A stretch of DNA of 35,698 nucleotides, taken from positions 1 to 35,698 of the IMG/VR virus record IMGVR_UViG_3300017697_000044. One strand, given 5' to 3'. Of the stretch, positions 27,000 to 33,547 are shown piece after piece. Origin of the DNA: a virus. How positions within the stretch are numbered: the first letter of the stretch is position 1; each line of letters starts with the position of its first letter. The position numbers and the translations under genes were made by a program. The notes beneath the pieces are model-generated. The model worked only from the letters and a program-made list of their open reading frames with translations, did no database searches and was not told the origin of the DNA.

Positions 27000-28761
27000 A
27001 ACTTTAACGGTAAAAAATTTCCTATCAGTGGGCAATCAAACTCAGGCCATAAACTTTGAGGGCAAACATCTAGTGCTAGTGCTAGGTGAGAATATAGATA
27101 TGGGCGGTGATGACGCTGGTGCAAGAAATGGTACGGGTAAAACAACAATTATAAATGCAATCAGTTATGCACTTTTTGGTGACGCACTGACACAGATTAG
27201 AAAAGACAACTTGGTCAACAAAACCAACAATAAAGGTATGGTGGTATCTATCACGTTTGAAAAAAACGGTGTAACATACACTATTGAGAGAGGCAGAAAA
27301 CCAGCCACTTTAAAATTTTACATTAATGATGTAGAACAAGATGGTGAGAGCAATGAAGCACAGGGCGAAAACAGAGAAACACAGGCCGAAATAAACAAGT
27401 TGATTGGTATGACTCATTCTATGTTTAAAAATATAATTGCACTGAACACTTACACACAGCCGTTCTTAGCCACAAAACAAGCAGAACAAAGAGAAATTAT
27501 AGAACAGTTGCTTGGTATCACAATCCTTTCAGAAAAAGCAGAAATGCTGAAATCACAAATGAAAAGCAACAAAGACGAATTGATATCGGAAAAATATAGA
27601 CTGGACAGTGTGATTGACAGCAATGAAAAAATAGAAGGATCAATCAAAACAATAAAATTGAGAAGCAGTGCTTGGGAGACTCAAAAAGATCAAGACACTG
27701 AAAAATTTAAAGAAGCAATAGAAGAATTAGAAAAAGTTGATATCAAGCAAGAAATAGAAGCACACAAAAAATTATCAAAACACACAGAAGATTCTAAAGC
27801 ATTAGTGAGTTTACAGAAAGAAAAATCTTATCATGAAAATTCATTTACCCAGGCAGATGCTAACGTAGACAAAACTAAAAAAGACATAGAATATGCCAAA
27901 GATGCTAAATGTCCTACTTGCGAACAGGACCTGCATGATGACAAACACACACATCTAGTGGATAAACTAAAAACTATACTTACTGAAAATGAAGATTACA
28001 GTAACAAACTAAAAAATGATCTTGGCAAAATACAAAAAGACATTGATGCTATAGGTGATCTTGGCAACACACCAGACACGTACTATGACACACTAGATGA
28101 AGCATACAATCACAAGGCATCATTGAATGATCTTAAACGTCAACTGACACAAACTGAAACAAAAGAAAACCCATATCAAGAACAAATTGAAGAGCTCAAC
28201 AAAAGTGCTATACAAAAAGTTGATTTCACAAGAGCCAACGAACTAGAAGACTTGTACAGACACCAAGAGTTTTTGTACAAACTGTTGACTGCTAAAGACA
28301 GTTTTTTAAGAACAAAGATTATAGAACAGAACTTAACATATTTGAACCAAAGACTTGCTGTGTATCTGAGCAAAGTGAAACTGCCACACACAGTTGTTTT
28401 CCAAAGTGATCTCACTGTGCAAATAGAAGAACTTGGCAGAGAACTTGACTTTGACAATTTGAGTAGAGGTGAAAGAAACAGATTGATCCTAAGTTTGAGT
28501 TGGGCGTTCAGAGACGTGTGGGAAGGATTGTATCAACAGATCAACTTGCTGTTCATTGATGAACTTATAGATGCAGGAATGGACACATCGGGTGTGGAAG
28601 CCGCAATGGCAGTGTTAAAAGACATGGCGCGGACTCAAAATAAAAATATTTTCTTAATATCTCACAAGGACGAGCTGGTATCTCGAGTCAACTCTGTATT
28701 GAAAGTGATAAAAGAGAATGGTTTTACCAATTATTCAAATGATGTTGATATTATAGTTTAA
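26986..28761 (+). CDS. 46: Recombination endonuclease subunit gp46-like (Rad50/SbcC family)
   Basis: The protein has 591 residues; T4 gp46 has 560. The N-terminus is an ABC-ATPase half with a P-loop ending NGTGKTT at residues 48-54. The usual GEN (34-36) is separated from it by about 11 extra residues rich in Gly and Asp. Long coiled-coil arms flank a zinc-hook CPTC (Cys309, Cys312). The C-terminal half has the signature LSRGERNRLILSLSWAF, Walker B LLFIDEL and an ISHKDEL switch. With gp47 it forms the ATP-driven end-processing complex. It overlaps gp47 by 14 nt; its last 11 nt overlap the convergent gene on the other strand. Confidence 0.95.
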   Translation: MLTIKTLTVKNFLSVGNQTQAINFEGKHLVLVLGENIDMGGDDAGARNGTGKTTIINAISYALFGDALTQIRKDNLVNKTNNKGMVVSITFEKNGVTYTIERGRKPATLKFYINDVEQDGESNEAQGENRETQAEINKLIGMTHSMFKNIIALNTYTQPFLATKQAEQREIIEQLLGITILSEKAEMLKSQMKSNKDELISEKYRLDSVIDSNEKIEGSIKTIKLRSSAWETQKDQDTEKFKEAIEELEKVDIKQEIEAHKKLSKHTEDSKALVSLQKEKSYHENSFTQADANVDKTKKDIEYAKDAKCPTCEQDLHDDKHTHLVDKLKTILTENEDYSNKLKNDLGKIQKDIDAIGDLGNTPDTYYDTLDEAYNHKASLNDLKRQLTQTETKENPYQEQIEELNKSAIQKVDFTRANELEDLYRHQEFLYKLLTAKDSFLRTKIIEQNLTYLNQRLAVYLSKVKLPHTVVFQSDLTVQIEELGRELDFDNLSRGERNRLILSLSWAFRDVWEGLYQQINLLFIDELIDAGMDTSGVEAAMAVLKDMARTQNKNIFLISHKDELVSRVNSVLKVIKENGFTNYSNDVDIIV

Positions 28762-29593
28762 TATCTCCAAGTAGTTTTCCAATAGAATACAGTTTATCAT
28801 CTTTATCTTTGACCACGTAAAAGAACATGGTTGGTTTAAGGCCTAACTTATCACAAATTTGTTGATTTATTTTTCCATATTTTTCCCATCCGTAGTCCCT
28901 GGGTATGTTGTCCATCATGAAAGATCCACATGCCGTGGTCAACTCGTTGTATTTCCTTTGGGCACTTATCATAGAACACGAATCCATTGTACGCTGTCTG
29001 GACCATCTCAACCCTATCCTGTTCCAAGTGAAATTGTACTTGGACATGCTCATGGCAAAGGATTTTATGTTAGGATGATCGAAGTTGAAGTCAAACCCTT
29101 TCGCGGCTGTGACCCAAGCACAATCAATGTGTATGTCGATGCCCTTCTGTTCACACTCCTTTAGAACTGCTTGCCAGGCTGGCCTGTTGCCGTAAAAGTA
29201 GTTTGGCAAAGACACTATAAGGGGTTTTCCGGGCTCAAGGTTCCCGGGATCGGTGTGTTTTTTGCCCATAACCGTGTAGTAGGCGTATTCTTTTCCAAGC
29301 ACCTGTATGTTCCATTTGTGTTTGCTGGCCAGACTCTCTATGAAGTGAGTGCAACCCATTATCACATCAACACAGGGAAACTTATCCCATCCTTGTAAAT
29401 CATTAATTTTCGTGGACCTAAACCAACCACTTGCCTTTTCAACAAATTCATTGTGCCCAATGCTTTCTTGCGGATCATGATACCATGATTTTTTCAGTGT
29501 GGACAAGTGTTCGTCCTGTACAGGCATCAACACGGTGTCTAGATGGCCTCTCTTTTGCAATTTTTTTATCGTTAAATTAGATATATCTAACAT
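28751..29593 (-). CDS. PLP-dependent aminotransferase-fold protein (fold type I)
   Basis: The start chosen is ATG 29593 (MLDISNLTIKK), which has GGAG 5 nt upstream; a longer frame from 29656 lacks one. This gives 280 residues, against about 400 for free-living class I aminotransferases. Visible landmarks in order: a VDVIMGCTHFIESLA segment like the phosphate-binding Gly/Thr loop; PLIVSLPNYFYGNRP in place of the usual NPNNPTG; DIHIDCAW with Asp157, the likely pyridine-nitrogen partner; SMSK with Lys185, the likely Schiff-base lysine; and RIGLRW (Arg192). The C-terminal small domain is shortened. The substrate is unknown. It overlaps the oxygenase gene by 17 nt, so the two are probably made together. 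A fold without activity remains possible. Confidence 0.62.
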   Translation of the reverse strand: MLDISNLTIKKLQKRGHLDTVLMPVQDEHLSTLKKSWYHDPQESIGHNEFVEKASGWFRSTKINDLQGWDKFPCVDVIMGCTHFIESLASKHKWNIQVLGKEYAYYTVMGKKHTDPGNLEPGKPLIVSLPNYFYGNRPAWQAVLKECEQKGIDIHIDCAWVTAAKGFDFNFDHPNIKSFAMSMSKYNFTWNRIGLRWSRQRTMDSCSMISAQRKYNELTTACGSFMMDNIPRDYGWEKYGKINQQICDKLGLKPTMFFYVVKDKDDKLYSIGKLLGDIKL

Positions 29594-30137
29594 ACAAACT
29601 CCTACGTGGGTCGTTTTTGGCAACTGTTCCTTCCGTGCCATGCAGGCTGACAGCATTGTTCAACAGTGCATAACCAGAATCCAATATATAAGGAAATGTC
29701 TTTATCACATTGTTGTCCCCGTCGAACAATGATGTTCCCACATTTGTTTCTGTGCCTAGATAAATCTGCAAGGCAAGTTTTATCCTCTGATCATCGGTGT
29801 GTGGAGATAGATAATAACCTGCACCGTCCAACCAGATGTCAACGCTTTCACATCGCAACGGCGTGTTGAATTTTGTTTCAAGTGCCTTTGTAATTTTGCT
29901 GTTGCAAAAGAAAATTTTAAGTTTTTTCATCAATGTCTCCGAATAATCTATCCTGTTTCTTGGCATGTGGTGTTGTTTTTCTAACTTTACTATTGTCATT
30001 TTTTCTATGTCTTTGATTTCTTTTAATATTTTATTACCAAAAAAATTTTGGTACTCTTGGTAAGCTATACCTTGTTTTACCATCAATGGTGATTTTTCTA
30101 TTGACGAAACCACATCTTGTGTGCTTAAATGTAACAT
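29577..30137 (-). CDS. 2OG-Fe(II) oxygenase (prolyl-4-hydroxylase type)
   Basis: The protein has 186 residues. It contains the facial triad: YLSPHTDD gives His113 and Asp115, and VSLHGTEG gives His166. RRSLYVRY (Arg178/Arg179) supplies the 2-oxoglutarate-binding arginine. The strands LALQIYLGTETNVGTSLFDG between the ligands fit the double-stranded beta-helix. Such oxygenases hydroxylate proteins or small molecules using iron, oxygen and 2-oxoglutarate, and are frequent in marine T4-like phages, where the substrate is mostly unknown. It overlaps the downstream PLP-fold gene by 17 nt. No good ribosome site is seen before ATG 30137. Confidence 0.85.
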   Translation of the reverse strand: MLHLSTQDVVSSIEKSPLMVKQGIAYQEYQNFFGNKILKEIKDIEKMTIVKLEKQHHMPRNRIDYSETLMKKLKIFFCNSKITKALETKFNTPLRCESVDIWLDGAGYYLSPHTDDQRIKLALQIYLGTETNVGTSLFDGDNNVIKTFPYILDSGYALLNNAVSLHGTEGTVAKNDPRRSLYVRYI

Positions 30138-30214: not shown

Positions 30215-30406
30215 ATGTCACAAACACATGAAAGTATAATGACAGCAATTCAAACTTATTCAGAAGAGAATGGTAAGTTTGTTGAAAAAGGTGTAAAAGC
30301 TTCAGCAACAAGAGCCAGAAAAGCACTTGCTGAATTATCAAAGTTGATCAAAGCAAGAAGAAAAGAAATTCAAGAAGTTAAAAACGCGGCAAAAACAGCG
30401 GCGTAA
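30215..30406 (+). CDS. Hc1 / histone-H1-like small basic protein
   Basis: The protein has 63 residues and is rich in Lys, Arg and Ala. The core is GVKASATRARKALAELSKL followed by IKARRKEIQEVKN. This resembles the bacterial histone-H1-like family typified by chlamydial Hc1 (pattern KG.KA...RAR.A...L.KL....RKE). Such proteins bind DNA and compact it. It has a strong AAGGAAGG ribosome site and its own intrinsic terminator just downstream (30430-30466), so it is a single-gene transcript, probably highly expressed. A role in packing phage or host DNA, or as a host-modulating protein, is inference. Confidence 0.72.
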   Translation: MSQTHESIMTAIQTYSEENGKFVEKGVKASATRARKALAELSKLIKARRKEIQEVKNAAKTAA

Positions 30407-30471: not shown

Positions 30472-31317
30472 TTAATCGTGGAAGTAATCTTCCATCTCGC
30501 CTTCTCTGTATAGATCTTGTGTGACACAGTGGATACCGTTGTCCCAGAATTGCTTGTCTCTGAATTCAGATACAATGGGATTTATTTTGTTTTTTTCCAG
30601 AAAGTTAAACAACACCTTGTTTTCTTTCGTAATTATACAGTTCTCTTCATTGACTGACAGTATGTTTACGTCGTAGTTGCTTTCTTTGTAGTCACCTCCC
30701 CAATCGTGCTGTATTGGTTTCTGCACTTGCTCTGCGGTTGGATAGCAGATATCCCATTTTGGATAAATTGTTTCTAGTTCGGGCAGGTCTCGAGAAGCCA
30801 CTATTACACCCGGTTTCAATATGCTGTAAACACCGTCCATGTGCCAACCGTGCCTGGTTATGGACACTTTATACTTGTTTTCACTTAACCATTGCAGTAT
30901 CTCTTTTTCCATTCTGTGCTCAACATGTTTACTGATATCCCAATGTACATGATTGCCACAACGTACCATGTTGCCGCTTGAAATATCATTTCCCACACAC
31001 CATTTTATTTTCTCACGATCTATTGATTTTAAAATATCCTTGTACCCAGCTACGACTTTGCCCACAAATAATTTTTCGCCCAACGCTATAAAATAGTCCC
31101 TAGGAGATATAGGTGGCCGCTGTGTGGTACTTTCAATGTTGGGCCTGTAACACACAACATCCATCGACTCAAGTGTTTTGACCAAGTTGTTTAAGTCCTC
31201 CTTGGTGTTGTTCATTACTTCCTTTAAGGGTTCTGCTACGTTTTCTGGTGAAGTTGCTCGACCAACAATACAGTGTTTAAGTGGTTGGAAGGTGCTGTAA
31301 CCTTTGATGGGTATCAT
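30472..31317 (-). CDS. Amidinotransferase (glycine-amidinotransferase type, pentein fold)
   Basis: The protein has 281 residues, shorter than cellular arginine:glycine amidinotransferases (about 360-420). Landmarks follow that family: SPRDYF (Arg73, Asp74) for substrate binding, SSGNMVRCG (113-121), GWHMDGVYSILKPG with the catalytic His159, and NGIHCVTQDLYREG with Cys264 as the likely nucleophile. Such enzymes move an amidino group from arginine to an amine through a covalent Cys intermediate. At the usual acid position (Asp in the DAAD loop of the human enzyme, from memory) there is Ser113, with Asp111 two residues before. The gene is translationally coupled to the GIY-YIG gene upstream (ATGA overlap). 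The acceptor amine is unknown; an arginine deiminase-like reaction is the alternative. Confidence 0.75.
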   Translation of the reverse strand: MIPIKGYSTFQPLKHCIVGRATSPENVAEPLKEVMNNTKEDLNNLVKTLESMDVVCYRPNIESTTQRPPISPRDYFIALGEKLFVGKVVAGYKDILKSIDREKIKWCVGNDISSGNMVRCGNHVHWDISKHVEHRMEKEILQWLSENKYKVSITRHGWHMDGVYSILKPGVIVASRDLPELETIYPKWDICYPTAEQVQKPIQHDWGGDYKESNYDVNILSVNEENCIITKENKVLFNFLEKNKINPIVSEFRDKQFWDNGIHCVTQDLYREGEMEDYFHD

Positions 31318-31745
31318 CCTTTTAATATACCCTTGCCGTGTACCCTGACACGTATGTGACCGTTGTAGTAATCGTTGGTCTCTAGCACTTTCCGAGCAAA
31401 CTGCTCTCGTGCCTCCACGTATGATAGTTCTGATTTTGATTTGCAGTAGAACAATATCTCCCTCTTGAAGTTTTCCGCACCAAGTCTCTTTATGTCTATG
31501 GTCAGTTCATCGCTGGAACCATAATAGTCCTGCCAGTCACTGTCGACCTTGTACCTACGTCTGTTGCGTCTGCCCTTTAGTGGTGCCTTGGATCTTTTGA
31601 ATTTCGCAAGTTTCTTGCCTATGTACATCCTGTCGTTGGTTGTGTTTGTTATCAAATAAACGAAACCCACACAGTCCTCTGGTAATACTAAAATGTCTTT
31701 CCCTTGGTGTGTCCATTGCATAGTGGTATTTAAACTCAAGAACAT
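31314..31745 (-). CDS. GIY-YIG nuclease-like protein
   Basis: The protein has 143 residues from ATG 31745; ATG 31721 (MQWTHQGKD) is an equally possible start because neither has a clear ribosome site. The signature is GFVYLI (27-32) followed by MYIGKK (40-45). Further along are a basic stretch of Arg and Lys, SDWQDYYGSS, and a helix YVEAREQFARKVLETNDYYN with a candidate metal-binding Glu and a terminal Asn. This is the single-domain GIY-YIG type seen scattered in T4-like phages, some as homing enzymes, others of unknown use. It overlaps the amidinotransferase start by 4 nt (ATGA). The structured, gene-free stretch begins right behind its start. Confidence 0.75.
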   Translation of the reverse strand: MFLSLNTTMQWTHQGKDILVLPEDCVGFVYLITNTTNDRMYIGKKLAKFKRSKAPLKGRRNRRRYKVDSDWQDYYGSSDELTIDIKRLGAENFKREILFYCKSKSELSYVEAREQFARKVLETNDYYNGHIRVRVHGKGILKG

Positions 31746-32036
31746 TGACAGACTTTTTTATGCGTGTTATATAGTAGTGAAGGGCAACAGCATCCTTCCA
31801 CCAGGCAAACAAATTTCCCAACAGGCAAACATAGCATCTTCTCAGTGAGCAGTGAAATGCACCGGATAACGGGATAAGTGAATCACTTGATGCACCATAC
31901 AAAATGATGGGGCTCTTAGAAAAAGATAATCCTCAAGTTTACCAAAAACTATTATACAAGGGTTTGGTAGGCTCGCGTTGTAACAGAATGAGCAAACGGG
32001 TACAGCACAACCGCCCGACGCAAGTAGCGATGTATA

Positions 32037-32136
32037 GTGACTGCGAACTCACCACAGGGTTCCGATCAGTTCTGCTAGTAATAGCAGAATTGTGACTGCT
32101 CATCTACCACAGGGTACGCATATGCGTAAATGCGTT
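32037..32136. ncRNA. Candidate structured RNA: two 24-nt repeats around a GNRA hairpin
   Basis: A 24-nt unit GTGACTGC...ACCACAGGGT occurs at 32037-32060 and 32092-32115 (19 of 24 identical, 55-nt period). Between them CAGTTCTGCTA (32067-32077) and TAGCAGAATTG (32082-32092) form an 11-pair stem closed by GTAA, a GNRA-type tetraloop when read on the plus strand. The second copy runs into a 14-nt perfect palindrome (32115-32128). ACGCAT (32116-32121) can also pair with ATGCGT (32130-32135) before TTTTT, which looks like a terminator. The GNRA loop and the T run favour the plus strand. No known RNA family was recognised. Confidence 0.4.
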
Positions 32137-32223: not shown

Positions 32224-33012
32224 ATGACCTTAAATATCAACATGGAACTGCTCTTTGACCACACCCACGGCAAACAGGAACACCAAGATCTTGTGATATG
32301 CAGGCCCATGGCCATCATTGATCCACAGGAGGAACCAGAAATGTTGGACCGCGGTTGGCTGGCGCAGGACTATCCAGTGGCGGATCTGCGTGAAGTGTGG
32401 TACCAGAGTCGTAGCACACGCATAGACATGCAGAAGTATAAGCCACGCTACAAACGTCACGAGTGGAAGGGCAAGGAGATAGGGGTCAAAGTGATCGAGG
32501 CCAGCGAGATGGTCAAACTGCTGGGACTGCCACACATCTACAGGCTGTACATGAAACGTAAAAATTTTGGCGCGGACTACGACCCTTTTGCACACTACCA
32601 CGAGCGTGATCAGTTCATGCTGTTCTATATCGGAGAGGCCGACAACATAATAGGATTCACCAAACAGAAACGCTATGCCTACATGGAGGACAACTACGTC
32701 GGCATCAATGATTACCCGGACCTTGCCGGACTGGAGTCAGTGATACACGCCAACACTGTGCCTGTGTCCGACATCACGCTGGACCTTGAATTGCAGTGGG
32801 CCTACAACAACCACGTGGGCTACTTCTACATGGGATCGGGCTACGAGAGATCATCAGAGTACAAGGCCAACTATGTTGGATTTCAGTGGTGGACGGGCAC
32901 CGAGTGGAGCACCAGCAAGAAACAGTACAAAAAATTGTGTCGCAGGGATTCTAGGATCGAGACTTTACAGGATGTCGCCAAGTGCCAGTCACTGATTCGT
33001 GATAGCCTCTAG
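32224..33012 (+). CDS. Arginyl/leucyl-tRNA-protein transferase-like protein (ATE/Bpt type)
   Basis: The protein has 262 residues from ATG 32224 (ATG 32242 also possible; neither has a clear ribosome site). The N-terminal part aligns by eye with the ATE/Bpt plan: MLDRGWLAQDY near 40-50, then RSTRIDMQKYKPRYKRHEWK near 63-82, matching the family's R-x-V...F.PS.SQRR stretch. The C-terminal part (about 180-228) has TLDLELQWA, VGYFYMGSGYE and EYKANYVGFQWW, matching the GNAT-like end with its G-Y and Y-K-A motifs. Members attach Arg or Leu to protein N-termini and so mark them for proteolysis. The Cys-rich cluster normally found between these N-terminal parts is absent. Coding sequence is richer in GC than most of the window. 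Function as an N-terminal aminoacyltransferase is inferred. Confidence 0.6.
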   Translation: MTLNINMELLFDHTHGKQEHQDLVICRPMAIIDPQEEPEMLDRGWLAQDYPVADLREVWYQSRSTRIDMQKYKPRYKRHEWKGKEIGVKVIEASEMVKLLGLPHIYRLYMKRKNFGADYDPFAHYHERDQFMLFYIGEADNIIGFTKQKRYAYMEDNYVGINDYPDLAGLESVIHANTVPVSDITLDLELQWAYNNHVGYFYMGSGYERSSEYKANYVGFQWWTGTEWSTSKKQYKKLCRRDSRIETLQDVAKCQSLIRDSL

Positions 33013-33547
33013 AGAAGTTGTCGTAGTACTTGGTCCTCTTCAGGATGTCCTCGAACTTCTTCAGCTTGACACGGTGTTGCACAAACAACAGCGTGTGCTT
33101 GCCTTGGTTTAGCTTCACGTTCTTTACTTTCTCCACCAGTCTGGGATGGTCCTCCATGATAAGGAGATTGTCACTTTGGTAGGATCGGTTCAGCTGTTCA
33201 GCCAACTTGCGGGTGTAGTGTGGAGTCCATCTCTTGGCCTCTGCGATTATCACCAGCACATCCTTGTTCTTGAAATCAAAACGATCTATCCTGGTCCATA
33301 TGTTGGAGTCAGGTTCTGCGTCTGTGAGTTCTTTGAACTCTACCTTGCCATCCAGCATGGCCTGTCGGGCGTAGGGACAGGGTGGGTAGTCGGCAAACAC
33401 CGGGTGTGGCACTTGTACAAATTCTTTTACCCAACGTATCACGTCCTCTGTGGGACTAGTCGTTGGACTGTTCTTCTTCTGTGATGGGTTTGTCGGCCTG
33501 CTCTTCGTCGACCGGGGTGTCTTTGTTTTTTTTAGTTTTTGTTTCAT
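32951..33547 (-). CDS. Conserved-looking protein of unknown function (198 aa or shorter)
   Basis: The frame starts at ATG 33547, but its first 35 residues (Lys/Thr/Pro/Ser-rich) overlap the coiled-coil gene out of frame by 92 nt and may not be translated. GTG 33442 (V-IRWVKEFVQVPHPV) is a plausible shorter start. The body has WVKEFVQVPHPVFADYPPCP with YARQAMLDG, a hydrophobic strand DVLVIIAEAKRW, and LNQGKHTLLFVQHRVKLKKF. The CPYA motif after a W-V helix is faintly like the DUF1415 family; this is a weak hint only. Its last 62 nt overlap the end of the transferase-like gene on the other strand. Base use is GC-rich like that gene. Confidence 0.7.
   Translation of the reverse strand: MKQKLKKTKTPRSTKSRPTNPSQKKNSPTTSPTEDVIRWVKEFVQVPHPVFADYPPCPYARQAMLDGKVEFKELTDAEPDSNIWTRIDRFDFKNKDVLVIIAEAKRWTPHYTRKLAEQLNRSYQSDNLLIMEDHPRLVEKVKNVKLNQGKHTLLFVQHRVKLKKFEDILKRTKYYDNFSRGYHESVTGTWRHPVKSRS

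Follow-up and report, generated by a model that had tools for sequence, protein, structure and literature searches.

The closest described relatives of the phage protein considered here are the bacterial ATE/Bpt transferases (PF04376 and PF04377; NCBIfam PRK01305 series), proteins of ~250 aa built around a GNAT-type domain. Bpt of bacteria transfers Leu. The phage protein is co-linear with these enzymes, is of similar length, and shares with them the GNAT-type domain and a Y[ML]G...[YW]K...W motif. It differs from them in that the Cys cluster is lacking, the spacing between YLG and YK is shorter, the region following RSTRI is remodelled, and the gene is phage-borne and accompanied by an obligate partner, c1. 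Eukaryotic ATE1 (PDB 8tzv, 7tif, 7wfx) provides the best fold match and the sole convincing PDB sequence match for a profile of the sister clade of the phage family. In contrast to ATE1, the phage protein is about half as long, possesses neither a zinc/Fe-S site nor a variable domain, and is ~10-14% identical in sequence. Other aminoacyl-tRNA transferases with the GNAT fold, namely the C-terminal domain of L-PGS/MprF, FemX, L/F-transferase, and Sba18/Sbb17, resemble the phage protein in Foldseek comparisons, while their profile matches are weaker or missing and their domain plans are different. To our knowledge, no phage-encoded ATE-type transferase has been described, and a full-text literature search combining arginyltransferase and phage returned none.

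The window, i.e., the whole stretch of virus DNA that was analysed, covers positions 1 to 35,698 (35,698 nt) of the IMG/VR record IMGVR_UViG_3300017697_000044. The ATE-like gene occupies 32224..33012 on the plus strand, as defined by its open reading frame, family alignments, an AlphaFold model, a fold search, and the ATE profile match. The original prediction had likened its product by eye to ATE/Bpt through a set of motifs, all of which were found in the translation: LDRGW (residues 41-45), RSTRI (63-67), and KPRYKR (73-78) in the front part, followed by TLDLELQWA (185-193), GYFYMGSGYE (199-208), and EYKANY (212-217). Many family-invariant columns fall within these motifs, including G44, W45, R63, R66, E189, G204, G206, Y207, E208, Y213, and K214. 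The protein is 262 aa long from the first ATG and ~256 aa from codon 7; the latter (32242) is probably the true start, since homology in the relatives begins at MELLFDH. The gene is under purifying selection, with pairwise dN of ~0.17-0.23 against dS of ~0.9-1.2 and dN/dS thus well below 1.

The window protein alone has no match in Pfam, PHROGs or PDB sequences and passes no family cut-off, the curated one of ATE_C (PF04377) included; the likeness to ATE seen by eye therefore had to be examined through the family. IMG/VR scans provided hundreds of contigs with relatives at identities down to ~40%, and a sister clade (clade B) was reached indirectly, via the neighbouring baseplate-hub gene. Comparison of one clade with the other gives E 1e-30 to 3e-33. 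All 6 sister-clade proteins scanned match Pfam ATE_C (best E 2.6e-7, above the cut-off); the member displayed in full scores 31.7 bits against a cut-off of 25, followed in second place by Acetyltransf_6 (28.1 bits, cut-off 22). When the sister-clade profile was compared with 177,635 PDB sequences, five ATE1 sequences came first at E 8e-4 to 1.5e-3, the next match being at 0.3; a PDB search with the first, shallow alignment had found nothing. In NCBIfam, four arginyltransferase models top the tally for 55 window-clade members, each match being weak individually (best E 0.018), and two arginyltransferase models reach E ~8e-5 with the sister clade.

The phage family was also compared directly with 59 bacterial ATEs taken from proteobacterial genomes. 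The hhalign score of the window clade against these proteins is 40.4 over 154 columns, whereas none of 400 shuffled decoys exceeds 27.5, and both clades together score 49.2 over 198 co-linear columns, compared with a maximum of 25.9 in 150 decoys; a shallow hhalign comparison had recovered the C-terminal motif only (prob 41). The YLG...YK motif of ATE is kept in the phage family in the form given above, and R66 is kept too, along with a set of invariant polar residues, none of which could be assigned as catalytic. Following the full-length hhalign path and the Cys count, an ATE_N-like part is placed at 32242..32440 (+), in which MELLFDHTHGKQE aligns with CPYLPGRLE and RSTRID with VPVRI, and from which the Cys cluster is absent. 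The GNAT-type, ATE_C-like C-terminal domain spans residues ~84-228 (32473..32907, +) according to the AlphaFold model, Foldseek, and the sister-clade ATE_C match. The likeness claimed for both halves of the protein is thereby borne out, and no profile search placed the protein in an unrelated family. LPG synthase gave a weak hhalign match to the phage family (P 0.0014). L/F-transferase (PF03588) gave no profile match to the phage family (hhalign P 0.3) and did not align with it, and this identity was rejected. An accidental likeness without homology to ATE, in favour of which one may cite the window protein finding no database match by itself, is for practical purposes refuted by the decoy-tested hhalign comparison together with the Pfam, NCBIfam, PDB-sequence, and Foldseek matches to ATE. 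From the alignments and the model, the phage protein is a divergent, Cys-cluster-free relative of ATE-type enzymes, homologous along most of its length.

The loss of the Cys cluster, also part of the original prediction, is equally clear. Four invariant Cys residues, arranged as CxxCxxC plus a fourth, are present in 59/59 bacterial ATEs, whereas CxxC occurs in 1/69 phage homologues, and the full-length alignment has a gap of ~8 residues in the phage family at the site of the cluster. A script-based mapping of shared conserved columns appeared to be out of register and was used for the absence of Cys only. In yeast ATE1, the site formed by C20, C23, C94, and C95 binds zinc and supports tRNA binding, and Y22, located between the first two Cys residues, touches the 3' end of the tRNA (PMC10115844). 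By eye, HxxGKQE of the phage family aligns with YLPGRLE of the bacterial enzymes, which suggests that the invariant H13 of the phage family may take the position of yeast Y22. Since the Cys cluster is a defining feature of ATE and was not found, the protein is not filed as a canonical ATE; the enzyme reading of the original prediction stands as regards homology, the GNAT-type fold, and the Cys loss, whereas transferase activity and the tagging of proteins for degradation are putative.

An AlphaFold model built from 55 family sequences (pLDDT 86, pTM 0.85) shows the GNAT-type, ATE-like fold that had been anticipated. In Foldseek, human ATE1 heads the PDB matches (E 3.2e-6, TMq 0.49). Most of those that come next are L-PGS/MprF aminoacyl-tRNA-dependent enzymes, then GNAT acetyltransferases; a peptide synthase that depends on aminoacyl-tRNA appears at rank 14 and L/F-transferase at rank 28. 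The same set of fold matches, FemX included, had come up with a shallower model built earlier. Sequence identities in these matches are ~10-14%, and the TM-scores, being below 0.5, indicate for the modelled protein a common domain plan without close structural identity. Residues 64-92 are modelled as strands and a basic loop, and no helix is seen between residues 68 and 94, the putative position of alpha-f, the basic helix that yeast ATE1 uses for the tRNA major groove. Recognition of tRNA may therefore be altered in the phage protein.

The Acetyltransf_6 match in the sister clade and the acetyltransferases among the Foldseek matches are what would be expected of a GNAT acyltransferase that uses acyl-CoA and is ATE-like in looks only. 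This reading is improbable in view of the ATE models coming out ahead whether the comparison is with Pfam, NCBIfam, PDB sequences or folds, and of the acetyl-CoA P-loop: the pyrophosphate-binding pattern [RQ]xxGx[GA] occurs in 0/69 phage homologues. On the absence of this signature from 69/69 proteins, a CoA-dependent GNAT was rejected.

The ATE-like gene is not alone. A second gene, c1 (32951..33547, minus strand), encodes a protein of 198 aa with the motif W...F...P.P.....PPCPyA, is convergent with the ATE-like gene, and overlaps it by 62 bases at the 3' end. It is recognized by strict co-occurrence and by weak DUF6875/DUF1415 matches. In the first gene-order survey, a convergent c1 follows the ATE-like gene almost without exception; a four-gene insert between the two genes in two loci (L049 and L071) represents the clearest break in adjacency that was seen. 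Because those loci had been selected for carrying the ATE-like gene, another set was assembled on the basis of the baseplate-hub gene. The ATE-like gene is present in 28 of these 80 loci, with c1 in 28/28, while 51 loci contain neither gene and one, at a contig edge, contains c1 without the ATE-like gene. When the count is restricted to the 55 loci with at least 2.5 kb downstream, 25 have both genes, 30 have neither, and none has only one. Phylogenetic relatedness among the loci means that such counts overstate the number of events. Clade B, a distant lineage, carries the pair in the opposite orientation with respect to the hub gene and still tail-to-tail, so that the pair has come through one or more separate rearrangements intact. 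These observations are strong evidence that the ATE-like gene and c1 form a unit. The original prediction did not mention the partner. Given the strict pairing, the ATE-like gene is not a free-standing tool of host takeover, and any proposed mechanism has to account for c1.

The c1 protein is ~170-198 aa long across the relatives. Its best Pfam matches lie below the cut-offs, with 20.6 bits for DUF6875 (PF21780; cut-off 24.5) and 20.1 bits for DUF1415 (PF07209; cut-off 26); these weak matches range from E 5e-4 to 0.03. The likeness resides in the region of the PPCPyA motif; both DUFs are functionally uncharacterised, and the pairing gives such proteins a functional context. Relatives of c1 are encoded by the phages HMO-2011 and CRP-345, in neither of which the ATE-like gene was found; c1 can thus exist independently. 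When degenerate patterns were used to look for c1, two loci only were returned, so that its independence from the ATE-like gene could be assessed only through the baseplate-gene sample. In the bacterial genomes sampled, no DUF1415 gene is near ATE, and the co-occurrence of the two (8/9 versus 50/80 genomes) is too weak to mean anything.

We favour, with a probability of roughly 60%, the reading that the protein is an aminoacyl-tRNA-dependent ATE-type transferase, changed at the metal site and acting with c1. Most likely, an aminoacyl-tRNA of the host (or phage) would donate its amino acid in the GNAT-type active site, and the enzyme would attach this residue to an amino group on a protein or peptide. 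The c1 protein, inherited together with it, would belong to this process too, whether as acceptor, specificity factor or regulator. We infer tRNA dependence, catalysis, and the acceptor, and the same holds for any consequence such as ClpS-dependent degradation. If active, the protein would be a case of a virus drawing aminoacyl-tRNA away from translation in order to relabel proteins or peptides, and would provide a natural test of whether the metal site of ATE is dispensable. The fixed pairing with c1 defines a two-gene unit that can be expressed and assayed.

Two alternatives lie within the ATE-type transferase reading. The enzyme might be a true N-degron writer, placing a destabilising residue on N-termini so that ClpS-ClpAP of the host destroys chosen host or phage proteins. 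This is the established role of the bacterial Bpt/ATE family, and ClpS is present in 76/80 proteobacterial genomes sampled. A SAR11 MAG (G001), reached through a related phage contig (L102), has ClpS but neither ATE nor L/F-transferase, and a phage could therefore supply the missing writer; the gene content of this MAG would matter only for phages that infect such bacteria. We nevertheless regard a degron writer as doubtful, given that the pocket for peptide and tRNA is changed, the Cys cluster is gone, the canonical pathway offers no role for an obligate partner such as c1, and related contigs fell in MAG bins of three unrelated taxa. About as doubtful is the second alternative, in which aminoacyl-tRNA would serve to modify one dedicated acceptor, be it c1, a peptide or some small molecule, for an end unrelated to degradation, comparable to the peptide synthases. 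The strict pairing with c1 and the fold likeness to L-PGS/MprF and to the peptide synthases Sba18/Sbb17 point in this direction, while the occurrence of c1 in HMO-2011 and CRP-345, where the ATE-like gene was not found, speaks against it. Still tentatively, and with somewhat more confidence than in either of these, we propose for the transferase that aquatic T4-like phages may employ a metal-free ATE-type enzyme and its obligate convergent c1 to modify a dedicated acceptor during infection, outside the N-degron pathway. If true, this module would be a viral use of aminoacyl-tRNA outside translation.

The carriers of the ATE-like gene are uncultured aquatic viruses of bacteria. The protein was not found in 50,697 GenBank phage records by tblastn with six different family members as queries; a profile search of four named phages was also negative, a weak negative obtained without a positive control. 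Three loci of the gene come from MAGs of unrelated taxa, and inference of the host from the MAG bins was rejected, as phage contigs were likely binned with cells.

Directly upstream of the ATE-like gene, a structured non-coding RNA of ~300 nt was identified at 31820..32125 (+) from DNA conservation and from covariation in a 57-sequence alignment. Its DNA is 80-91% conserved with sharp edges across phages whose ATE-like proteins are more divergent. For 29 of the 48 pairs that the alignment supports, both partners vary; pairing holds in 98.5% of cells, compared with 32-44% when the alignment is slid, and the covariation score is 0.50, compared with 0.19 in shuffles. A terminator-like hairpin at 32116..32135 (+) forms the 3' end; many relatives share its ACGCA/TGCGT stem, whereas the loop varies. 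Small upstream open reading frames, e.g., 31904-32095, overlap this RNA and are probably not genes. Rfam gave no match to the RNA even at E 5, ARAGORN detected no tRNA or tmRNA in it, and blastn did not find it in any GenBank phage searched.

The RNA adjoins the ATE-like gene in the window clade and is often near it in the sister clade. Taken with a Cys site that is gone and a tRNA-groove helix that seems to be missing from the model, this placement could point to a non-catalytic protein of ATE fold that binds tRNA or the adjacent RNA. However, the GNAT part has numerous polar positions that are invariant in the family alignment (K147, E171, H175, E189, E208, and K214), which suggests a working pocket, and the RNA is widespread without the protein, as the protein also occurs without the RNA; such a binder is slightly less probable than even the acyl-CoA reading. 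In the independently chosen set, 46/80 loci contain the RNA, and in roughly half of these 46 no ATE/c1 pair was detected. Occurring both alongside the pair and in its absence, the RNA is a separate element and an independent lead beside the pair. The idea that the module needs the RNA as a third component was rejected, since both the RNA without the pair and the pair without the RNA occur.

The genes on the other side of the RNA were counted by cluster in the 106 related loci of the first gene-order survey. A GIY-YIG, SegE-like endonuclease (31314-31745, minus strand; PF19835, E 7e-35) adjoins the RNA, and its cluster is present in 90/106 loci. A 63-aa histone H1-like Hc1 protein (30215-30406, plus strand; PF07432, 47.7 bits against a cut-off of 23.5) is conserved in 74/106. 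Between these two genes lies an amidinotransferase-family gene (30472-31317, minus strand) with PDB matches to SxtG, HsvA, and arginine:glycine amidinotransferase at E down to 4.9e-9; its homologous cluster is variable cargo, present in 20/106 loci. We also note that the products of 29577-30137 and 28751-29656, beside the amidinotransferase gene and both on the minus strand, resemble by eye a 2-oxoglutarate/Fe(II) oxygenase and a PLP enzyme, respectively, likenesses that the searches did not back. Together with the amidinotransferase gene, these two genes possibly constitute a small biosynthetic cassette in a variable region.
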